Notes: generated by a model from the letters alone, not told the origin. Counted from the first letter of the stretch, positions 10,707 to 35,260 are shown. The stretch: DNA of 49,449 nt from Desulforadius tongensis (GCF_016907915.1 NZ_JAFBCW010000018.1:1-49449), one strand, 5' to 3'. Numbers and translations: made by a program.

Positions 10707-11738
10707 GTGTGGAAAATTGACAAAGCCAAACTACTGCAGGCATTATCTTATACGCTGGAAACATGCGGTGCCTGCCGGTTGGCACTTCGTTACATACAAA
10801 AGGCCATTGAAATAAGTCCCCACAACTTTGATCTGCACATGCAGGCCTGCCGGTTATATTTAAAGGGCGGGCAGTTAGATAGTGCTGCCCACCACTGCAA
10901 AAAGGCCAACATTGGCGTTGGGCCGGGCGGTTTCTTATACTGGCTGAACAAAGCCTGTAACGATGCATACCTGTCTTCACAAAATAACAATTCGGGTGCC
11001 GGTAAAGTTGTAAAAAAAGAAGACGTGGCCAGCACCTTCAATAACACCGGATTGTATTTATTGGAAAGCGGGCGGTACAAAGAAGCAATTGCCTGTTTTA
11101 AGCAGGCTATTAAAGCCGGCCGTAAAGACCCGGTGGTGCTTACCAACATGGGGCTTGCTTATACCAAAATGGGCAGCCACAGCAATGCCCTTGCCGTACT
11201 GGAACAAGCTCAAAAAATGGGCTACAGCAGTTTGGAATTATTAATTCACAAGGGGTATAATCTTTTCTATCTGAATAAACTGGAAGAAGCGGTTTCCTGT
11301 TACGAAAAGGCCAGGGAAATTTCACCTGCAGACCCTTCTGTACTTTGTAATTTGGGTTCCTGTTACCAGCGGTTGAAAAAATATACCGCAGCAGTGGAAT
11401 GCTATAAAAGGGCCATTGAAGTAAGCCCCGAAGATGCTGCTTTATATAACAACCTGGCCCTGTGCCTGGAAAATCTTAATCAAACAGACGCGGCCATTGA
11501 TAACTATATTAAAGCTGTGGAAAAAAACCCGGGCAGCGCCACCATCATTACCAATTATGCTGCCTGCCTGAGCAAATTAGGACGCTGCGAAGAAGCACTG
11601 CAGCTGTGCGATAAGGCTCTTCAACTGCAGCCGGGCAATTATGAAACATGGGGATTAAAGGGCAACCTGCTGATGGATATAGGTAAAGCGTCCGACGCGG
11701 CCGAAGCTTACACCCGGGCATTGGGGCTGGCCGGTTAA
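10707..11738 (+). CDS. Tetratricopeptide repeat protein
   Basis: Cytoplasmic protein of 343 aa composed almost entirely of TPR units (about eight) with the typical spacing, for example AYTKMGSHSNALAVLEQAQKM, LGSCYQRLKKYTAAVECYKR and AIEVSPEDAALYNNLALCLE. No signal peptide or catalytic domain is seen. Such proteins are protein-protein interaction scaffolds; the partner cannot be read from the sequence. The start is GTG at 10707 with GGAGGGA at 10690-10696. It converges with the DNA-repair operon and lies opposite the queuosine operon. Confidence 0.85.
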   Translation: MWKIDKAKLLQALSYTLETCGACRLALRYIQKAIEISPHNFDLHMQACRLYLKGGQLDSAAHHCKKANIGVGPGGFLYWLNKACNDAYLSSQNNNSGAGKVVKKEDVASTFNNTGLYLLESGRYKEAIACFKQAIKAGRKDPVVLTNMGLAYTKMGSHSNALAVLEQAQKMGYSSLELLIHKGYNLFYLNKLEEAVSCYEKAREISPADPSVLCNLGSCYQRLKKYTAAVECYKRAIEVSPEDAALYNNLALCLENLNQTDAAIDNYIKAVEKNPGSATIITNYAACLSKLGRCEEALQLCDKALQLQPGNYETWGLKGNLLMDIGKASDAAEAYTRALGLAG

Positions 11739-11769: not shown

Positions 11770-14340
11770 TTACTGCCGCACTTCAACGGTTGAACCGTTT
11801 TCACCTTTGGTTACCACCAGCTGTACCGGAAAGGCATGTTTTAGTTCTTCAATATGGGTAATAACAATTATTTTTTCAAAGTCACCGGCGATGGCATTGA
11901 TAGCCTGTACCAACTTCTCTTTTCCCCGGGCATCCTGGGTACCAAACCCTTCATCTATTACCAGGGTCTGCAGCCTGGCACCCGCCCGCCGGGCCAGCAG
12001 CCGCGACAGGGCAATGCGCAGGGCAAAGTTAACCTTAAAGGCTTCGCCGCCGCTGAACATTTCATACCGGCGGGTGCTGGACTCATCGGAAATATATATT
12101 TCCAGCGTTTCCACCACCCGTTTACTGCTTTTGGCCGCTTTTTGGGTCACCAGCGCCACTGTCAAACGGCCTTCTGAAATTTGCTGCAGTATCCGGTTGG
12201 CCTCCTGCTCCAGTTCCGGAATGGCATTTTCAATAATAATGGCCTGGATGCCGTTTTTACCAAAGGCTTTTACCAGCTCGTTATAATAGTTCCTTTCCTT
12301 CTGGGCGGTTTCCCTTTCTGCCGTTAACCGCTGTTTCTCCTGTTCCAGCCGCCGGCAGCGGTCTAATTTTTCCTGTACAATGCCCAGACTGCGTTCCACT
12401 TCAGAAATGCGCTTCTGCACACCGGCCATTTTATCTTCAGCCGCTTCTAAACTGTGCTGCAGGCCGGTAAGTTCTTTCAGCTTAACGGAATGCTGCTGTA
12501 TTAACTCGGTTGTGCTGCCGGCAGCCCCATGTAATGAATGCAGGCTTTCTTCAAAATGCCGCAGGTTTTCCCTGCTGCTTTCCAGCGCCGCCCGGGCCCA
12601 CTGCAGGCTTTGATACTGCTGTTCATAATGCTTTAATTCAGCAATTTGTGCTTGTATTTGGTTGTGTTCGGCGGTGGAATAATTAATTTTTCTAATCTGC
12701 TGCCGGAGGTCTTTAATGGCATTTTGCTGCTGCAGGGCAAAATTTGCCTCGTTCAAGATCGCCTGCAGTTTATCAAATTCCCTCTGCAGCTCAGCCTGTT
12801 TTTGGGCCGCCTGTTTAGATTCATTTAACCGGTGCTGTAATATTGAGTATTCCTTTTCCAGCCCGCGGCAGTTATTTAACTTATCCTCCACCTGTTTTAA
12901 TTCATCCTGCGCCTGCCGGCACTTTTCATTCAAGCCGGTTATCTCCTGCCGCAGCTGCTCATGCTGTTCTTTTAACTGCTGCCCCTCTCGAATCATTTCA
13001 TTTAACACCTGTTCCCGGTGAACGCCGGACAGCTCGGTGCGGCACAGCGGGCAGCTGGCCACCGGTTGACGCAGTAGGGAATACTTACCCCGCAATTCCG
13101 ATATCTGCTCATTTATCCTGGCGGCCAACAATTCTTTAGCCTTTATCTCCTGGACATGGGATTGTACAGCTTCCTTTAATTCCTGCCGCCGTTCTTCCAG
13201 CTGTTTTAACCCGGCAAGCCCATCCTCCAGCAGGGCCAGTTCTTTTTCTAAACCTTTTCTTTGCTGTGAAAGGCTTTGGTAATGGTTTAGTTCACCCTGC
13301 AGCTGGACACATTGTTTTTCAATTTTCGACTGCTCATGCTGTACCTGCAGTTCCAGGTTCATCTTTTCTTCATTTAACTGCAGTAACCGGCGGGATTTTT
13401 CATTGTATTGTTTGTCCCTTTCCACCAATTGCTGCAGCTGCCGGTAATTGGATTCGATTTCACCGGCCCTGGCCACCAGTTCTTCGCCCTGCCGGAGCTG
13501 CTGCCGCAGTGATTTAACCCTCTCTTCTACGGCAGTAATCTGCTTTTGGTAGTCCTTTAACTGCGCTTCCAGTTCCTGCACCCTTTTCTGCACCTGCTGC
13601 AGTTCAGAAAGCCTGCTCCGTAAGCTGTCCACTTCTGACTGTACATCCTGGTATTCCCGGTACAGCAGGTTGTACTTTGCTTCCAGTTCTTTCTCCTGCT
13701 GCCGGTACCGTTCCATTTGGGAGAGTTCTTCAACCATTTCCTCCAGCTTGGCATCTATTTGGGCACACAGGGCCCCGGCTTTCCCGGCCTCTTCCCTGGC
13801 CAGCATTTCCAAGTCTCTGTACACAGATAACCCCAGTATCTCACCCAAAATCTTTTTCCGCTCCGCCGGTTTCATGGATGTAAAACTGTCCGCCCTGCCC
13901 TGCAGTATAAAGGATGAACTGGTAAAGGTGTGGTAATCCATGCGCAAAACTTGAATAATCTTTCGCTGGGTTTCACTGATACTGTCCGCCGTGATGGAAC
14001 GAAAGGCATTCCCGTCGTATACTTGAAATTCCAAAGAGGATTTTTTCCGGCGCTTGTCCCGGCGGCGGCAAACCCGGTAGGTATTTCCTTCCAACAAAAA
14101 AGTAAATTCCACTTCCATATCTTCAGCCCCGGAACGTATTAGATCATCTACCCCGGCCCCCCGCTCGTCGGTTCCCCTGGCCTGGCCCCAAACTGCCCAG
14201 GTAATGGCATCCAGCAGGGCCGATTTGCCATTGCCGTTATCGCCGGTGAGACAGGCCACATTAAAACCGTCAAATCGAATGGGATCAGATTGTGCACCGT
14301 AACTGATAAAATTTCTTAATTTCAACTCCACCGGAATCAT
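11770..14340 (-). CDS. sbcC: Rad50/SbcC-type exonuclease ATPase subunit
   Basis: SMC-like ATPase of 856 aa, partner of the Mre11/SbcD nuclease in double-strand-break and hairpin processing. The Walker A GDNGNGKSALLDAITW lies near residues 33-48. Two long coiled coils rich in Gln, Glu and Leu flank a zinc hook CPLC near residue 431. The ABC signature (MFSGGEAFKVNFALRIALSR near 763) and the Walker B (TLVIDEGFGTQD) follow. The length is close to archaeal Rad50 (about 850-900 aa) and shorter than E. coli SbcC (about 1050). The gene overlaps sbcD by four bases and is the last gene of the nurA-herA-mre11-rad50 operon. Confidence 0.92.
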   Translation of the reverse strand: MIPVELKLRNFISYGAQSDPIRFDGFNVACLTGDNGNGKSALLDAITWAVWGQARGTDERGAGVDDLIRSGAEDMEVEFTFLLEGNTYRVCRRRDKRRKKSSLEFQVYDGNAFRSITADSISETQRKIIQVLRMDYHTFTSSSFILQGRADSFTSMKPAERKKILGEILGLSVYRDLEMLAREEAGKAGALCAQIDAKLEEMVEELSQMERYRQQEKELEAKYNLLYREYQDVQSEVDSLRSRLSELQQVQKRVQELEAQLKDYQKQITAVEERVKSLRQQLRQGEELVARAGEIESNYRQLQQLVERDKQYNEKSRRLLQLNEEKMNLELQVQHEQSKIEKQCVQLQGELNHYQSLSQQRKGLEKELALLEDGLAGLKQLEERRQELKEAVQSHVQEIKAKELLAARINEQISELRGKYSLLRQPVASCPLCRTELSGVHREQVLNEMIREGQQLKEQHEQLRQEITGLNEKCRQAQDELKQVEDKLNNCRGLEKEYSILQHRLNESKQAAQKQAELQREFDKLQAILNEANFALQQQNAIKDLRQQIRKINYSTAEHNQIQAQIAELKHYEQQYQSLQWARAALESSRENLRHFEESLHSLHGAAGSTTELIQQHSVKLKELTGLQHSLEAAEDKMAGVQKRISEVERSLGIVQEKLDRCRRLEQEKQRLTAERETAQKERNYYNELVKAFGKNGIQAIIIENAIPELEQEANRILQQISEGRLTVALVTQKAAKSSKRVVETLEIYISDESSTRRYEMFSGGEAFKVNFALRIALSRLLARRAGARLQTLVIDEGFGTQDARGKEKLVQAINAIAGDFEKIIVITHIEELKHAFPVQLVVTKGENGSTVEVRQ

Positions 14341-15563
14341 CCGTAAATATCCCTCTCTTTCAATTTACGGTATAGACTTTCAGCCCGCTGCACCAGTTCT
14401 TCTTTATCACCGTTAACACCGGCAGTTTCCAGGTACTCCTTAAAGGCGGCCAAAGGGTCCAGTTTCTCATTCAGATTGGGGTTGCGTAATGCACCGTCTT
14501 CACCAGTCAGTTCACGATTTATCGAAGCCAGGTAGTAATAGTGCCGGTCAATAAACCGGCGCACCTGCCGGTGGTTGATATTGGCATAATCAGCGGCAGT
14601 ACATTCAATAATCAACCGCAGTATCGCCCGCTGATCGGCACTTTTTTCCACCCGTTCCAGTATTTCCGCTGTGGGGTCTTTGCCCTTGATTTTTACTCTA
14701 ACGGTAACAAAGGGCCGGGTGGACAGGGGGTAAAAATTATAGCTGCAGCGTCCTTTTTCAACTTCCACCAGCACATAACCCTTTTTCTCCTTTTCTTCAC
14801 CGAAATCTATGCGATCCAGGCTGCCGCTGTAAACCAGCGGCGGGTTTTCCGCCAGCACCTGCTGCCTGTGTATATGGCCCAGCGCCACATAATCAAATCC
14901 CCCCTGCTGCAGGGCAGAGGCAGGTACTGCCAGATCCCGCCCCACCATGATGCAGTGTTCCGAACCGGCCACCGCACCGGTTACCGTAATGTGGGCACAC
15001 AGCACCGCCGGAATATCCGGTTCCAGTTCCGCAGACAACCGTCGGGCTAAACCGGCAACGTTGGCGGCCATTTCTTCCTCCAGCTGTTCCAAAGTTTTAC
15101 CGCTATGCCCTTCCCTGCTCAACCACGAGCTGCGGGAAGGATAAGGAATGGCCGCCACCTGCACCGGACCGGATTTAGTATCAATTACGTACACCCGGGG
15201 ATGGCGCCCCACCGTTATCCCCGGCACCTGCAGGGTACGGTAAATATCTAAAGCGTTAGATTTACCCGCAGCGTTGGGTAAATCGTGATTGCCCACCAGC
15301 ATAAACACTTTAATTCCCGCATCCGAAAGCTTTTTCAGCCGCCTGGCCAGTGCATTTTGGTGTGTTTCAGAGGGCTCACGATTTTTAAAGGCATCGCCGC
15401 AAAAAAGCACCAGATCTACCTGTTTTTCTATGGCATCTTTAACCAGGCTGTCCAGCGAAACTAAAAAATCTCGCAGCCGGCTGTGCACACCGGTTTTGTG
15501 ATCAATACGCCCGTAATTTTCCACCCCGATATGCCAGTCGGCGGTGTGTAAGATACGTATCAT
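14337..15563 (-). CDS. sbcD: Mre11/SbcD-type DNA double-strand-break nuclease
   Basis: Calcineurin-like metallophosphoesterase of 408 aa and nuclease subunit of the Mre11-Rad50 complex. The five phosphoesterase motifs are present: HTADWHIG (6-13), LFCGDAFKNREPS near 53, VGNHDLPNAAG near 92, CAHITVTG near 190 and ALGHIHRQQ near 228. A C-terminal capping and Rad50-binding region follows. It sits 29 bases after herA and overlaps sbcC, so the four repair proteins are expected in similar amounts. Confidence 0.93.
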   Translation of the reverse strand: MIRILHTADWHIGVENYGRIDHKTGVHSRLRDFLVSLDSLVKDAIEKQVDLVLFCGDAFKNREPSETHQNALARRLKKLSDAGIKVFMLVGNHDLPNAAGKSNALDIYRTLQVPGITVGRHPRVYVIDTKSGPVQVAAIPYPSRSSWLSREGHSGKTLEQLEEEMAANVAGLARRLSAELEPDIPAVLCAHITVTGAVAGSEHCIMVGRDLAVPASALQQGGFDYVALGHIHRQQVLAENPPLVYSGSLDRIDFGEEKEKKGYVLVEVEKGRCSYNFYPLSTRPFVTVRVKIKGKDPTAEILERVEKSADQRAILRLIIECTAADYANINHRQVRRFIDRHYYYLASINRELTGEDGALRNPNLNEKLDPLAAFKEYLETAGVNGDKEELVQRAESLYRKLKERDIYG

Positions 15564-15592
15564 AGAATACCACCCGTTCTAAAAAACTTTTA

Positions 15593-17224
15593 TTACAACT
15601 CCAGATCTTCACCGTACATGCCATCTACCATTTCTTTAAACGCATTATCATTCTCCGCATAATCCGTTTCCCCAATCTCATTATAGAACTGTACATCGTA
15701 ATTCCTGGTTTTTATCACCACCGGCATGGGTACGGCATGTCCCATTATTAACGCCTGCTGCTTGGAATCCAGGCTGTACAGTATATTGCGCAGGTTTTTA
15801 GCATTATGTACCCCGGTTAAAAGGGCACTAACATCAGACTCATCGTCCAACTTACAGGCAATTTTGGTGCCAATTTGAGACATCACTTCACTGTCAATAC
15901 CCGACGTGCGCTGGTCCACCAGCAGCAGCGTCACATTATACTTGCGCATTTCCCTGGCAATGGTGGCAAAAATAGTATCTCTGGAAAGTTCGGGACTTAA
16001 AAAACGGTGCGCCTCTTCAATGGTTATCACCAGGTGTGGGGGCTTGTTCTCCTTGGTGGCCTGGTATTTTTCCATCCGCCTGACATACTCGGCGTGAATG
16101 CGCTTGGTAAGTATATTGGTTACCAGCATGTAGCCTAACAGTTGGGTACTGCCGAACTCAATAACCACATGCCTGCCGCTGTGAAGATACTGCATTATTT
16201 TATCCACCGCATCAAAGGGTACTTTATCCCGCATAAAGGGCAGGTCGTAAACCCGTTTCAACTTTCGCTGCAGTGCCTGCAGCGCCCCCAGGTGAAGACC
16301 ATGGTCTTCAGCATAGCTTTTTAATTCTTCAGCCCCCATTTCAATTAATAACTTAAACCAGTGCTGGGGGCCCATTTTACCGGACAGCAGGTGCATGGTT
16401 TCGGTGGCGGTGCTGTTTAAATTTAACTGGGACTGCAGCAGTAATATGTCCTCCGGGGTAATTTGATTGTACGCCAGGTGTATCTCATGGTCATACTTGG
16501 CCCCCCGGCGCCGGCTGGACTGGGAATCCAAAGTGAAAATAACCACCTGAGAAGAAAACAGCTGCTTTAAACCTTTAACATGGGATTCACGTTTTGTACC
16601 GTCACCCCGGTCTTCTTCCCTGGTGGCTTCCCAACCGTATTCATTGTGGGCATCAAAGATCAGGTTCACCGCCGCCCGGCTTTTAGTAATTCCAGCCAGT
16701 ATCAGCCGGGTAAGAAAGGTTTTGCCGGTGCCGGCCTTGCCGAAAATGCCGGTACAGCGCTCCACCAGTTTGGGCAGATTGACACAAACCGGGGTATCCA
16801 TTTCCAGGGGAGTACCCATGGAAAAGTACACTTTGTTGTCAGGGGCACCAAAAACACGGGCCACATCCTCACTGGTGGCAGTGCGCACCGGGGAACCGTG
16901 GGGGGGAATGGTGCGCACCGCCCGCACTTCCCCGGCCAGGTCTTTATCTGCCATCAGCATGGGATTTAAAGATATATTGCCAAAAATACTGTCCCCGATA
17001 ATAATTTCCCTGGCCAGTTCATCATCCTCTTCGTCAAAGGAATCTACCAGCACAGCTGGGTTGGTGGAGTCTATTTTTACATCCGCCACCAGCGAAAAGT
17101 AGCGGTACTTCTGCCCTTCAATAACTGCAAAATTCCCCACTTTAACATCTTCCACGGTATAATGGGGATCTAATTTTACTTCCACCCCTGCACTTAACGA
17201 CCCCCTGACAACTTTTCCCCTCAC
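15593..17224 (-). CDS. herA: HerA-type DNA translocase/helicase (FtsK-HerA ATPase)
   Basis: ATPase of 543 aa of the HerA family, hexameric DNA pumps that drive the NurA nuclease in 5'-end resection. The N-terminal ~110 residues form a HAS-barrel-like region (VVRGSLSAGVEVKLD onward). The Walker A is FGKAGTGKTFLTRLILAG near residue 165, the Walker B LVITIEEAHRFLSPE near 400, and a sensor/arginine-finger region LLVDQRTSGIDSEVMSQIGTKI near 437. The start is GTG at 17224, overlapping the preceding gene by four bases. HerA with nurA, mre11 and rad50 in one operon is the archaeal arrangement and uncommon in well-studied bacteria. Confidence 0.9.
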   Translation of the reverse strand: MRGKVVRGSLSAGVEVKLDPHYTVEDVKVGNFAVIEGQKYRYFSLVADVKIDSTNPAVLVDSFDEEDDELAREIIIGDSIFGNISLNPMLMADKDLAGEVRAVRTIPPHGSPVRTATSEDVARVFGAPDNKVYFSMGTPLEMDTPVCVNLPKLVERCTGIFGKAGTGKTFLTRLILAGITKSRAAVNLIFDAHNEYGWEATREEDRGDGTKRESHVKGLKQLFSSQVVIFTLDSQSSRRRGAKYDHEIHLAYNQITPEDILLLQSQLNLNSTATETMHLLSGKMGPQHWFKLLIEMGAEELKSYAEDHGLHLGALQALQRKLKRVYDLPFMRDKVPFDAVDKIMQYLHSGRHVVIEFGSTQLLGYMLVTNILTKRIHAEYVRRMEKYQATKENKPPHLVITIEEAHRFLSPELSRDTIFATIAREMRKYNVTLLLVDQRTSGIDSEVMSQIGTKIACKLDDESDVSALLTGVHNAKNLRNILYSLDSKQQALIMGHAVPMPVVIKTRNYDVQFYNEIGETDYAENDNAFKEMVDGMYGEDLEL

Positions 17225-17796
17225 TGCCGAATCCTCCTTATGATGGATTTAAACCGCTCGTAATCTGCTGCCAAAAGCCGACGCAGTTCATTGCCCACCC
17301 GGCGGTGGTAACCAATGACATCATCCTGATAAGCACTGGAGCTGCGCACCACTGCCGCCACCAGTTCATCTCTGGGTTCACAACCGGAAGCTAAAATGGT
17401 GCTGATAAAATTGAGGTTTTGGCCTATCTGCCTGTACTGTTCGCCGGTGCACCGCCGGACAAAGGAATGAATCCGTGCCGGTTGAGGGGGAAGATATCCC
17501 AGATATTTATTGTTTTGATAATGTCCCACCACCAGCACATCGAAATAGGTGCGCAGCAAATAAAAAATTTGCGGCTGTTTGCGGCGCAGCTCCTCTTCCG
17601 GCTGCCCGTAAGCCATTGGTCTTCGGGCCGGGTCCGTGCTGGCGGTGGTGGTGTTAAACACCACCCCAACAATACCGCCTTCACTGCTGTCCACCTGTAC
17701 AAAGGAACCAAAATCGGGAGCTTGATGCAGTTTTACCGCCTCACAGGTGAATTGGGTGGTTTTACTTTCTATTACTTCGCCGATATGGTCACTCAT
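17221..17796 (-). CDS. HAS-barrel-like protein of the nurA-herA operon
   Basis: Protein of 191 aa. Its N-terminal ~60 residues (IGEVIESKTTQFTCEAVKLHQ, then FGSFVQVDSSEGGIVGVVFN) resemble the HAS barrel found at the N-terminus of HerA and of F1/V1 ATPase subunits. The C-terminal half is helical and rich in Arg, with no nuclease or ATPase motif. It overlaps nurA by one base and herA by four, so it is very likely part of the same complex or its regulation. HerA in this operon already has its own barrel, so this would be a second, free-standing one. The family assignment is by recollection of the fold pattern. Confidence 0.6.
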   Translation of the reverse strand: MSDHIGEVIESKTTQFTCEAVKLHQAPDFGSFVQVDSSEGGIVGVVFNTTTASTDPARRPMAYGQPEEELRRKQPQIFYLLRTYFDVLVVGHYQNNKYLGYLPPQPARIHSFVRRCTGEQYRQIGQNLNFISTILASGCEPRDELVAAVVRSSSAYQDDVIGYHRRVGNELRRLLAADYERFKSIIRRIRQ

Positions 17797-18962
17797 TACA
17801 CCGGAACGCTCCTTTTGCGCATACTTTTACAGGTTATCTCTGATAACAAACCGCTTTCAATCAGTTTTCTATTAACCAGTTCATAAAAAACTTTACGATC
17901 GCTGCCGCTTACCACTGCCTGCCGGTGAGCCTCCGCCAGGCACACTGGGTAACCGCCGCCCTTTTGGGCTTGGTCTACCACAACGCTGTGTACAGTATTT
18001 ATGTACTCGGTATCCAGCGCCACCCACCGGGGCACTTCCACCCGGATAATCTCCATGCCCACGTTAACATAAAAGAAATAAATCCTGTGCTCACCATATT
18101 TCTCCAGCACCTTGGAATTAGACTTAAAAAGCGCCGAACGCCGGCCGTACTCTAACCAACCAGCAAATAAAGCGGCATCCCGCAGGCCGGATACCGATTC
18201 ACAGGGACTGTCAGGCTGTCCCCGGCGGGCACAGTGGTCGCAGTCCACCCGCAGCTGCGGGCACAGCTGCACCCGCAGCATGTTGATAACATCGGTACTG
18301 CGGCTCCCGGATATGTAACCGGCCAGCGGCACTCTTCTCTGCCGTAAACTCTCATAGCTGGACACTAACGCTGTTAAAAAATTTTCCGCCCACTTACCCT
18401 GCTGCTCTGCCGCCCACTGAATAAGGGTACCATCGGTTAGGGCCACCACGGTGCCTGCCTTACAGCGCCGGGACATTTTCACCAGTGCCTCTGCCTCTTC
18501 CAGGGTACGGAGAGCGGATACCCGCTGGCTGTCCACCAGCCTCTTTACTCCATCCTCTTCCATGTATAAATCTTCTTCACGATAATACAATTTGGGCTCG
18601 CTGTTTAGTTCCGCCCCGGGGTTATTCCCATATTCCAGGGCAGCGGTGCCAATATTTATTAAATAACACAACACCACCTCATGATGATCGGGAAAAAGCT
18701 GTGACCCGTCACTGGCTAAAACCTGATATTCGCCGGGAGGCGGCGGAAGTGGGTGAGTTACAGCCGCATCTTCTACGGGTTCAGCCACCAGCCAGGATGT
18801 TTTGCTCTCCTGCACCCGCTTCGCTATTTCTTTCAATCTTCCATTCAACTGGGACAGACTTTGGGCAGCTGCTTTTAACTTTTGTTTGTTATTATCGGCA
18901 TTTGCCCGGCAATGTTTTACCATCGCCTCTATATGGGGAAAAAGGCCGGATAAATCAAGCAT
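17796..18962 (-). CDS. nurA: NurA-type 5'-3' nuclease
   Basis: Nuclease of 388 aa with the NurA domain. The catalytic motif is LASDGSQLFPDHHE near residues 80-93 (Asp after Ala-Ser as in the family's DGS), with acidic residues further on: VVALTDGTLIQWA near 173 and the late WVALDTEYIN near 317. NurA degrades the 5' strand at DNA ends together with HerA. The start ATG follows GGGAGTG, and this is the first gene of the five-gene operon. A four-cysteine/histidine cluster (CDHCARRGQPDSPC, near 240) is a possible metal site. Confidence 0.85.
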   Translation of the reverse strand: MLDLSGLFPHIEAMVKHCRANADNNKQKLKAAAQSLSQLNGRLKEIAKRVQESKTSWLVAEPVEDAAVTHPLPPPPGEYQVLASDGSQLFPDHHEVVLCYLINIGTAALEYGNNPGAELNSEPKLYYREEDLYMEEDGVKRLVDSQRVSALRTLEEAEALVKMSRRCKAGTVVALTDGTLIQWAAEQQGKWAENFLTALVSSYESLRQRRVPLAGYISGSRSTDVINMLRVQLCPQLRVDCDHCARRGQPDSPCESVSGLRDAALFAGWLEYGRRSALFKSNSKVLEKYGEHRIYFFYVNVGMEIIRVEVPRWVALDTEYINTVHSVVVDQAQKGGGYPVCLAEAHRQAVVSGSDRKVFYELVNRKLIESGLLSEITCKSMRKRSVPV

Positions 18963-19090
18963 TTTCTAACACTCCCGATAAGCAGAACCATTGTTCGATA
19001 TATAATAATTCGACGGGCAGCATCTTTTCCCTTCAATATGAGCTTTAAAACTTTAACCACAAATCCGGCCTATACGCGCCACCGCGTCTT

Positions 19091-19471
19091 CTATAATATA
19101 TTTTTTATGGTTACCGCTTCCTTTTCCGGTATATGCTGAATCATCAATTTCAGTTCTGATAAATGCCCCAAAGAAAGGTCAATATTTTTTTGGGCAATGT
19201 ATTCTTTTATCCTGGCCAGGTTAAACTCAATATTGTCAATTTCCTGGTGATCCAGGAACACCGGCCACCAGTTTGCTTTTTTACGCCAGCTGTTCTCCAA
19301 AGCCTTTGTTTCTTCACCGGCCCTTTGCCAATCCTCTTTTTCAGCAGCCGTCATTATTTGATCAATATTTTGGGCCAAACTTTCCGCCGCTGCGGCTATG
19401 GTATGGTTTGTCCAAATTCCCAGTACAATAAACAGCGCGAATATCACTCCCAAAACTGCCAGTAATCTCAT
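19091..19471 (-). CDS. DUF4363 family protein
   Basis: Protein of 126 aa with one N-terminal membrane anchor (LLAVLGVIFALFIVLGIW) and a helical extracytoplasmic part (AESLAQNIDQIMTAAEKEDWQ and following). It resembles DUF4363 proteins, which in Clostridia often follow a yetF-type gene as here. ATG at 19471 has GGAGGG at the right distance; the in-frame TTG two codons earlier does not. It is the last gene of the spore-membrane operon. The function is unknown; I infer a partner of the YetF protein. The spacer to nurA (18963-19090) shows nothing notable. Confidence 0.7.
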   Translation of the reverse strand: MRLLAVLGVIFALFIVLGIWTNHTIAAAAESLAQNIDQIMTAAEKEDWQRAGEETKALENSWRKKANWWPVFLDHQEIDNIEFNLARIKEYIAQKNIDLSLGHLSELKLMIQHIPEKEAVTIKNIL

Positions 19472-19495
19472 AGCCAACCCTCCATAAACTTTACG

Positions 19496-32455: not shown

Positions 32456-35260
32456 TCATTCTACTTTATAAAGCCAATTTTTTATGTTATTTAACATTTT
32501 AATCTTGTTTCCCCGCATGTGGCTGCTTACCGGAAGGGAGTTGAGAAACTTTTGACCGTACCTTTTATTTACTATCCGTTTATCCAGTATTATCACCGCC
32601 CCCCGGTCGTACCCCGTTCTAATCAGCCTGCCAAAGCCCTGCTTAAATTTAATTACCGCTTCCGGCAGGCTGAAATGGCGAAACCCGTCTTTATTTTCTT
32701 TAGCCAGCGCTTCCAGGCGTGCCTCTACCACCGGAACGTTGGGCGGCCAAAACGGCAGCTTTACCAGCACCACACAGGATAATGCCCGGCCGGGAATATC
32801 CAGGCCTTCCCAAAAACTGGCCGCACCAAACAGCACTGCCCGTTCACTTTCTTTAAATTCTTCCACCAGTCTTGTTCTTCCGCCATCTATGTCGTGGCCA
32901 AGGAGCAGTATATCCTGTTCTTCCAGCTGAGGTTTTAAACAATAGTACACCTTTTTTAAAACTTTATGCGCGGTAAAAAGCACCAGGGTACGGCCCCCTG
33001 AAACGGCTGCAATTTCACCGATCACCTCTGCTAAAGACTGTAAATATTCTTCCTCGGGTACTGTGCCGGGGGCGGGTAAATCGTTTAACACATACAACAG
33101 GCTCTGCCGGTCGTAGGCAAAGGGAGAATCTACCCGCAGCGTTTTTAGTTTATCAGGTTTTAGTAAATTAAGTCCACTGCGCTCTATAAAATGATCAAAG
33201 GAACCATCCACCGTCAGTGTAGCCGAGGTAAATATCACACAATTCTTCTCGCTGTACAGTGTGCTGTGCAGCAACTCCCCCACTTTAACCGGTACTGCGT
33301 GAATGGATATATGACCCGCTCCTTCTTCATTTACCTCGCCCTCTATCCAGTGCACCGTAATATCACTGTTACAATCACAGGTAAATGATATATCAGCCGC
33401 CAGTACTAATCCTGCTTCTGCCACCAACGCAGCTTCCCTGGCCACTTCACTTTCCCCGTCAATCATCTGACCTTCTATTTCTGCAGCCGTCTTTTGCAGG
33501 TGTTCAGACAGGGAATTGATACGCTGCACCAGGTTTTCAATTTCCACCTGCATAGATGAAAAATCGGTACCTTTTTTCAGCCGCACAGTGCACCTGGTTT
33601 GCTCAGGGTTCTGTTTTTTGGCAGCCAGGAAATGGGAAATACCGGCAAAAAATATTTCCGCCGCTTCCCGCACTTTATATTGTAATTCTTTTAAACCGGC
33701 CATATTTTCCAGCCACTGTCCCTGCTCCCCGGGTGCAGGCAGCTCTGCCAGCCTGGCGGTGATTTTGGAAACCCTGGTCAACCAGCGCGCTACCCCCGCC
33801 CTATTCACCTCTGTACCCAGGTGTTTGGTGGCAGCGTCTTCCAAATGGTGTGCTTCGTCTATTACCAGCACTTTATAAGCAGGTAATACCCTGCTTTCCA
33901 CCGCAATGTCTGAAAAAACCAGTGAATGATTGGCAATTATTATATCCGCTTGTTCCGCCCGGCGCTTGAGCCGGTTAACAAAGCACATTCTACGAAAGTA
34001 ACGGCATTTTTTGCCCAAACAACCATCGCTTTCGGCACAAACATTCTTCCACAGTTCAAAATCATCACCGTAGAAATTCAGCTCACTTCTATCCCCGGTA
34101 TCTGTTAGCGTAAGCCATACTAATATACGGGCGTAGAAACCCGCTTCTTTGGAATTGATATTTTTATCCCCCAGGGCTGCATACCAGCGGCGCAGGCAGA
34201 GAAAGTTACTGCGCCCCTTAACCAGGCAGGCTTTAAAATTCATACCGGAAAGGGACTGCAGCAGCGGTACATCCTTATGGCACAATTGTTCCTGCAGGTT
34301 TATGGTATGGGTGGACAGCACCACCTTTTGCCTGTTTTTTTTCGCCCACAGGACAGAGGGTAAAAGATAGGCCATGCTTTTACCGGTACCGGTACCGGCC
34401 TCTGACAGCAGGTAATGCCCATTGTTCAAAGACCGGGTAACCGCCCTGGCCATGGCCAGCTGCTGGGGGCGGTATTCATAATTTTTTATTACTTTACTCA
34501 GCAGCCCATCCTGGCCTAAATAACTGCTCACTTCATTTTCATCTACGGGCTGGAAGCCGTCTTCCCCCTGCCGGTTCCTGTATTGGAAAACCAGCTCTTC
34601 TTTCGGCGGCCGCAAACCGGTGATGGTGGCTATCCTGCGGTTGGAAAATTCCTTTGCCTTTCTCTGCCCCACCTGCTGTATTACGGTAAACCAGGGAGAA
34701 TGGGATTTTTCTAACAGAGTTATTAAGTCCAGCAGCAGGGGAATTTCAAACATGGACAAACGGTGCACCAGTTCCACCGCCAAAAATGCCGCTCCCCGGG
34801 CATCTTCCAGTGCCCGGTGCTTTACCGGCAGATCAACTGCGCACAATTTACAAAGGGTTTCCAGCCGGTGGTTAGCGGCATTGGGCAAAACTATGCGGGC
34901 CAATTCCACCGTATCGTAAATAACATTATTAATGGGATTGGCCAACGACCTACCCATGGCTGCAGAAATGAAATTTCTGTCAAACTGAACATTATGACCG
35001 AGGAGGGGATTATCGCCAATGAACTCTATTACTTCAGGCAAAATTTCTTCTATACCCGGGGCTTCAAGCAGCATTTCATCAGTAATTCCGGTTAACCTCT
35101 TTACTTTCACAGGTAATCTCATTCCCGGGTTAACCAGGGAATGATAAGATGCAGTTTCCACCCCATCCACCAGCTTCACCATTCCCACTTCAATTATCTT
35201 GTCCTTTTGCGGGTCGGTTCCGGTGGTTTCCAGATCTAAAGCCACATAAGTTCCATACAA
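32456..35260 (-). CDS. dinG: DinG-family helicase with N-terminal DnaQ-like exonuclease
   Basis: Protein of 934 aa. The N-terminal exonuclease domain of the DEDDh type has DLETTGTDP (9-17), GHNVQFDRNF (near 92) and HRALEDARGA (near 148). The XPD/DinG-type helicase has the Walker A EAGTGTGKSMAYLLP near 287 and the DEAH box LVIDEAHHLED near 465. Four cysteines in CAESDGCLGKKC and RRMC (near 407-425) look like the FeS-cluster ligands of XPD/DinG helicases. The C-terminal motif VI region is FGRLIRTGYDRG. The start is TTG at 35260 with only a weak ribosome binding site. Acts in repair of stalled forks and damaged DNA (family knowledge). Confidence 0.9.
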   Translation of the reverse strand: MYGTYVALDLETTGTDPQKDKIIEVGMVKLVDGVETASYHSLVNPGMRLPVKVKRLTGITDEMLLEAPGIEEILPEVIEFIGDNPLLGHNVQFDRNFISAAMGRSLANPINNVIYDTVELARIVLPNAANHRLETLCKLCAVDLPVKHRALEDARGAAFLAVELVHRLSMFEIPLLLDLITLLEKSHSPWFTVIQQVGQRKAKEFSNRRIATITGLRPPKEELVFQYRNRQGEDGFQPVDENEVSSYLGQDGLLSKVIKNYEYRPQQLAMARAVTRSLNNGHYLLSEAGTGTGKSMAYLLPSVLWAKKNRQKVVLSTHTINLQEQLCHKDVPLLQSLSGMNFKACLVKGRSNFLCLRRWYAALGDKNINSKEAGFYARILVWLTLTDTGDRSELNFYGDDFELWKNVCAESDGCLGKKCRYFRRMCFVNRLKRRAEQADIIIANHSLVFSDIAVESRVLPAYKVLVIDEAHHLEDAATKHLGTEVNRAGVARWLTRVSKITARLAELPAPGEQGQWLENMAGLKELQYKVREAAEIFFAGISHFLAAKKQNPEQTRCTVRLKKGTDFSSMQVEIENLVQRINSLSEHLQKTAAEIEGQMIDGESEVAREAALVAEAGLVLAADISFTCDCNSDITVHWIEGEVNEEGAGHISIHAVPVKVGELLHSTLYSEKNCVIFTSATLTVDGSFDHFIERSGLNLLKPDKLKTLRVDSPFAYDRQSLLYVLNDLPAPGTVPEEEYLQSLAEVIGEIAAVSGGRTLVLFTAHKVLKKVYYCLKPQLEEQDILLLGHDIDGGRTRLVEEFKESERAVLFGAASFWEGLDIPGRALSCVVLVKLPFWPPNVPVVEARLEALAKENKDGFRHFSLPEAVIKFKQGFGRLIRTGYDRGAVIILDKRIVNKRYGQKFLNSLPVSSHMRGNKIKMLNNIKNWLYKVE

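Follow-up and report, generated by a model that had tools for sequence, protein, structure and literature searches.

A HerA-NurA-Mre11-Rad50 operon as a probable replacement of AddAB in Desulforadius tongensis

A stretch of 49,449 nucleotides from Desulforadius tongensis (GCF_016907915.1 NZ_JAFBCW010000018.1:1-49449), called here the window, is one contig of a genome of 2.58 Mb (G000, 99.6% complete). It carries an operon coding NurA, a stand-alone HAS-barrel protein, HerA, Mre11 and Rad50, an archaeal-style gene set for trimming DNA ends that is present here in a spore-forming bacterium. Relatives of D. tongensis carry either the nurA-herA set or the helicase-nuclease AddAB, so that the operon probably does the job of AddAB. 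It is likely that the five genes encode an SOS-controlled system for DNA-end resection that replaces AddAB.

Organisation of the operon and its proteins

The five open reading frames lie on the minus strand between positions 11770 and 18962 (Table 1). Three of the four junctions are overlaps, of 4, 4 and 1 bases, and the remaining one is a spacer of 29. The overlaps and the conserved order suggest that nurA-HAS-herA-mre11-rad50 form one transcription unit. An earlier note on this DNA had described five same-strand genes with overlaps of 1-4 bases, one 29-base spacer and intact motifs, and had recognised an archaeal-type resection set (HerA-NurA with Mre11-Rad50); all frames and motifs were verified, and the families and motifs match such a set. 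The arrangement is not a product of chance because eleven further genomes, which belong to six Bacillota families, and one Tectomicrobia contig have the same five genes in the same order. These operons, named type A, code for an Mre11 of ~410 amino acids (aa) and a Rad50 of ~855 aa and are found in G000-G003 (family f1), G075 (f53), G379 (f31), G123, G157, G262 and G392 (f81), G083 (f61), G372 (f99) and the Tectomicrobia contig. Type B operons, present in many Bacillota families, have nurA, herA and genes for a short Mre11 (~325 aa) and a short Rad50-like ATPase (mostly ~440-535 aa); no HAS gene was recognised in the type B operons of other NurA families. Type B is apparently a minimal resection operon. 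The view of the earlier note that bacterial SbcCD usually stands apart from HerA and NurA was too narrow, as their linkage recurs in many Bacillota families.

NurA matches Pfam PF09376 (E 9e-32) and has its invariant residues D85, E156, D177, Y338 and H346 and its motifs DGS and DGT intact. Its AlphaFold model resembles solved NurA structures (best 2ygk, E 9e-11; also 3taz), while the sequence profile of the family found no NurA chain among solved chains and fold comparison alone gave one. A four-cysteine motif, C234-x6-C-x2-C-x9-C (codons 234-254, window 18201-18263), is kept in 22 of 23 type A NurAs, including those of other phyla, and is absent from type B; it suggests a metal (zinc) or iron-sulphur (Fe-S) site.

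HerA matches Pfam PF01935 (DUF87; E 8e-27), with a weak HAS-barrel match at residues 4-68 (E 0.046) and intact motifs (Walker A GKAGTGKT, the conserved IEEAH, and DQR). Mre11 scores 155 bits against TIGR00619 (E 3e-45, cut-off 77.65) and features all phosphoesterase motifs: DWH, GDAF, GNHD, AHIT and GHIH. Rad50 matches the Pfam families AAA_23 (E 5e-19) and Rad50_zn_hook (E 2.5e-5) and also SbcC_Walker_B; its Walker A GDNGNGKS, hook CPLC, FSGGE and VIDEGF are intact and its nearest solved chain is an archaeal-type Rad50 (3aux, E 3e-25). As judged from these family matches and motifs, the set has the gene content expected both of an archaeal-type HerA-NurA-Mre11-Rad50 system and of SbcCD/Mre11-Rad50.

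The protein coded between nurA and herA matches the Pfam HAS barrel PF09378 (E 9e-6). Its structure model (predicted local distance difference test, pLDDT, 90.6) has a HAS barrel followed by a helical tail, and residues ~1-157 match the N-terminal domain of solved HerAs (Foldseek E 4e-7 to 4d2i; VIA Z up to 14.6; root-mean-square deviation 3.4 over 113 residues). By sequence the similarity to the HerA N-terminus is weak (hhalign probability 11.5); it was structure that settled the likeness. In Deinococcus this HerA domain is the docking site of NurA (PMC9960219). A role as adaptor between HerA and NurA is therefore likely for the protein modelled with this fold, which is apparently an undescribed third subunit of HerA-NurA: no paper describing a solo HAS subunit was found in the open-access literature searched.

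Opposite distribution of the operon and AddAB

AddA scores over its family cut-off in 28 of 41 relatives, and 14 have NurA; the two overlap in a single genome, and every genome has at least one of them. The distribution of AddB agrees with that of AddA. The set was widened to 85 genomes of the same order with a completeness of at least 90%. AddA is over cut-off in 69 of them, and in a further genome a fragment of AddA lies at the end of a contig. The other 15 all carry NurA-HerA, 13 from the wide survey and two (G017, G029) from the narrower search. The wide survey missed these two known cases, and large-scale NurA counts are thus lower bounds. Not one genome of the order is without both AddA and NurA (Fisher p 9e-16, kinship ignored), and both operon types are opposed to AddAB. 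The only genome of the order with both is G012, which has a lone nurA-herA pair without mre11 or rad50. In the phylum as a whole (398 genomes), 9/72 NurA-positive genomes have strong AddA vs ~213/326 NurA-negative ones, an opposition that is strong but not absolute.

The opposition could be an accident of shared ancestry if a few lineages had lost AddAB and gained HerA-NurA, and in the order the NurA state is confined to about six lineages. This is most improbable in view of the families in which both states are found, at least f1, f8 and f18 in the order, with f31, f33 and f81 elsewhere in the phylum, and of the lack of any genome of the order without both systems.

A genome-wide profile search of D. 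tongensis found neither AddA nor AddB over the family cut-offs, and sbcD is single, within the operon. The complete AddAB and second SbcCD that the earlier note would have taken as speaking against its proposal are thus not there. None of the five operon proteins is itself of the AddAB kind, that is, a superfamily 1 (SF1) helicase with a RecB-type nuclease domain. The genome does code for a divergent pair of AddA-like and AddB-like proteins whose helicase motifs (with Walker A GAGTGKT) and RecB-type nuclease motifs are intact, a point that weighs against replacement by the operon. If this pair carried out resection, the operon would be dispensable in D. tongensis. We regard that as very unlikely: the pair scores far below the AddA and AddB cut-offs, adjoins a regulator with a WYL domain and does not go with the loss of AddAB, being scattered patchily over genomes of both states. 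Long AddA-like frames are found in NurA-positive genomes (G000, G001, G023) and in genomes with canonical AddAB (G030, G033, G443, G459, G461, G470), and are missing from other NurA-positive genomes such as G003, G018, G022 and G032. The divergent pair was rejected as an AddAB substitute on the basis of this distribution. In G003 the operon is present and searches for AddA and AddB found no AddAB-like protein at all.

The AddAB-bearing members of f1, f8 and f81 have addB-addA-sbcD-sbcC instead, with an SbcC of ~1200 aa or more. A tree of 28 SbcD/Mre11 proteins puts those from type A operons and those linked to addA in separate groups, each with support 100/100, and both kinds are found inside f1 and inside f81, two unrelated families. 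It follows that whole operons were exchanged. The HerA tree is consistent with a single Bacillota grouping, G372 and G083 being on long branches. In the AddAB-bearing sister genome G004 the DUF4363 and TPR genes that border the operon of D. tongensis adjoin, 112 bp apart with nothing between them, which shows that the five-gene set was gained, or was lost in G004, as one block. The addAB-sbcDC operon of G004 lies on a different contig from this empty site. The idea that NurA-HerA took the place of AddAB ahead of an otherwise unchanged sbcDC was rejected, since the two operons have SbcDs of different lineages and lie at different loci.

Other observations weigh against a general replacement of AddAB. 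Neither NurA nor AddA is over cut-off in ~113/398 genomes of the phylum, and the operon coexists with canonical AddA in G083 (type A) and in G057, G087, G125, G159 and family f65, where the operons that were read are of type B. The genomes are related, so that p-values overstate their independence and the contrasts within families are better evidence. The putative LexA site described below is not found in exact form beyond f1 and G083, the latter having a variant. The HerA-NurA of Thermococcus degrades both strands, and the authors of that study (2026) doubt a role in resection and suggest an antiviral enzyme (PMC12977600).

Regulation and function

A palindrome just upstream of nurA, which reads CGAACAATGGTTCT, has the features of a LexA (SOS) operator at the nurA promoter, as far as its sequence tells. 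An exact match to GAACnnnnGTTC occurs once in the whole window (0.38 expected), and sites of the GAACnnnnGTTC/T form serve as LexA operators in C. difficile (PMC4234289). In the whole genome of D. tongensis CGAACnnnnGTTC is found twice, before nurA and inside a coding region resembling spoIIE (named by reading its sequence). The site occupies the same place before nurA in G000, G001, G002 and G003, the four carriers of the operon in f1, and G083 has a variant form. Among the addB, sbcD and type B nurA genes examined, none was found to have such a site in front. Promoter scans yielded 12 sites vs 12.7 expected, which is the chance level, and the nurA leader gave nothing usable. In family f81 the operon directly follows recA-recX (RecA and RecX named by sequence), with nurA overlapping the end of recX (L040:8560-11441, L042:3247-6146).

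In the proposed mechanism, DNA damage would lift LexA repression at the operator before nurA. Mre11-Rad50 would bind and tether broken ends and open them, or clear those that are blocked. The loaded HerA hexamer would pump duplex DNA into a NurA dimer that digests it, leaving single-stranded DNA for RecA. The stand-alone HAS protein, a paralogue of the NurA-docking domain of HerA without the ATPase, might act between HerA and NurA as adaptor or regulator. Resection as such, its strand polarity, the assembly of the proteins in a complex and the loading of RecA are what we infer, together with the roles assigned to the HAS subunit and the four cysteines. We favour, with moderate confidence, a fuller version: three-part HerA-HAS-NurA with Mre11-Rad50 would be a complete SOS-regulated substitute for AddAB-SbcCD, one that would have been exchanged as a whole on several occasions within Bacillota and in which the HAS protein is a new essential subunit and NurA has a metal or Fe-S site. 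HerA-NurA would then serve break repair in bacteria.

HerA proteins serve also in defence, and the operon might code for an anti-phage or anti-plasmid nuclease in which HerA-NurA degrades incoming duplex DNA in the way of Sir2-HerA or HerA-DUF4297, with Mre11-Rad50 as accessory. PADLOC HerA profiles match the HerA of the operon (best 103 bits), none matches the nurA or HAS proteins, and the archaeal HerA-NurA degrading both strands has been proposed to be antiviral (PMC12977600). Such a function appears quite unlikely as the main one. The window has core genes on both flanks of the operon (the spoVA sporulation cluster on one side; TPR, then queuosine, GTP cyclohydrolase and others), and no mobile or defence genes were recognised in it; neither the island or mobile context nor the known effector partner of HerA-type defence was found, the partner being NurA. 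The operon is also single copy, occurs in every f1 member without AddAB and opposite to AddAB, and has a LexA-type operator, besides its linkage to recA-recX in f81. A pair in a more defence-like setting exists in G012, where the lone nurA-herA (L037:9318-12379) lies beside a site-specific recombinase and co-occurs with AddAB; this pair may serve defence. Foreign DNA is degraded by AddAB and RecBCD as well, and anti-phage activity might be a side function of the operon.

A repair system for sporulation or germination that owes its expression in the forespore to read-through out of the neighbouring spoVA cluster would account for the position of the operon in D. tongensis, 128 bp downstream of DUF4363, the end of spoVAC-spoVAD-YhcN-YetF on the same strand (~90 bp in G003). 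The distance is ~3 kb in G002, the operons of other families are elsewhere (beside recA-recX, purD and others), and the SOS-type site suggests that the operon has its own control, all of which makes this an unlikely explanation. Among the three roles put forward in the earlier note, recombination repair is thus the best supported; the chromosomal context speaks against an anti-phage role, and the argument for a spore role is adjacency to spoVA in f1 only.

Known systems, other operon forms and neighbouring genes

The archaeal operon of Sulfolobus and Thermococcus has the same four enzymes in one transcription unit, in a DNA-damage context, with a HerA hexamer bearing a HAS barrel and a NurA nuclease of RNase H-like fold. 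The operon of the window differs in being bacterial, in its extra HAS subunit and four-cysteine NurA, in its LexA-type control and in alternating with AddAB. Bacterial NurA-HerA is known from Deinococcus and Thermus, and in the nurA-hepA-sbcD-sbcC arrangement of Oceanithermus it is linked to sbcDC (PMC9960219, PMC5448004). Neither a separate HAS gene nor a replacement pattern was reported for these systems and they are described as restricted to few bacteria, a 2023 study calling bacterial NurA-HerA rare (PMC9960219); according to PMC12977600, D. radiodurans is without Mre11-Rad50. The AddAB-SbcCD operon of Bacillota likewise combines a helicase-nuclease and SbcCD and occupies the same functional slot, but has unrelated SF1 helicases with RecB-type nucleases, an SbcC of ~1200 aa or more vs 856 aa and an SbcD of another clade. 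HerA-based defence systems (Sir2-HerA, HerA-DUF4297, TdpAB) also pair a HerA hexamer with a nuclease or effector; the partner is different and there is no Mre11-Rad50 or LexA-type site. Their usual setting is a defence island.

The arrangement of the operon thus has precedents in archaea and in Oceanithermus (PMC5448004), while the pattern of AddAB replacement and the HAS subunit appear to be new; the open-access literature search found no paper describing HerA-NurA in place of AddAB in Bacillota. The function of HerA-NurA is disputed. Its natural exchange with AddAB makes a role in resection testable, and the clean either/or distribution across a whole order is natural evidence for a role in break repair. 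Sister species with and without the operon allow direct genetic comparison, and the HAS-barrel subunit and the cysteine motif of NurA are accessible to biochemical tests. Judging from the exchange, the end-resection machines of bacteria may be modules that can replace one another.

Table 1. Features of the window and related loci in other genomes
Feature	Position	Strand	Remarks
rad50/sbcC	11770-14340	(-)	ATPase with zinc hook, 856 aa
mre11/sbcD	14337-15563	(-)	nuclease, 408 aa
herA	15593-17224	(-)	hexameric translocase ATPase, 543 aa, own weakly recognisable HAS barrel
stand-alone HAS-barrel gene	17221-17796	(-)	191 aa, proposed accessory subunit between NurA and HerA
nurA	17796-18962	(-)	NurA-family nuclease, 388 aa
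LexA (SOS)-type operator GAACAATGGTTC	18986-18997	(-)	just upstream of nurA
DUF4363 gene	19091-19477	(-)	left border of insertion; end of spoVA cluster; directly followed by the TPR gene in G004
TPR-repeat gene	10707-11738	(+)	right border of insertion; same neighbour in G001, G003 and, without operon, G004
divergent AddA-like and AddB-like genes	L024:6277-13874 = G000:C14:20276-27873		1085 aa and 997 aa; beside WYL-domain regulator
type B operons	L028:5192-10484; equivalents L029-L036, L044, L048, L051, L052, L054, L055		many Bacillota families
nurA-HAS-herA outside Bacillota (including Tectomicrobia); Cyanobacteria herA	L058:5888-13882; L059, L063, L064, L066, L071, L074, L076, L107		

A three-gene form, nurA-HAS-herA, is found in Latescibacterota, Gemmatimonadota and Armatimonadota, and Cyanobacteria have related herA genes without nurA or HAS neighbours. 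Hardly any Bacillota (L078) are among the matches listed from the wide contig scan, which has little to say on that phylum. Besides a type B operon, genome G037 has an orphan mre11-rad50 pair (L153:1418-5229) that matches type A in size and is accompanied by neither nurA nor herA. With respect to the genes around it, the TPR gene points the opposite way from its counterparts in G001, G003 and G004, which suggests inversion of this one gene in D. tongensis. Further along the window, positions 32456-35260 code for a protein of 934 aa in which an exonuclease (RNase_T) domain is fused to a DinG-like helicase.

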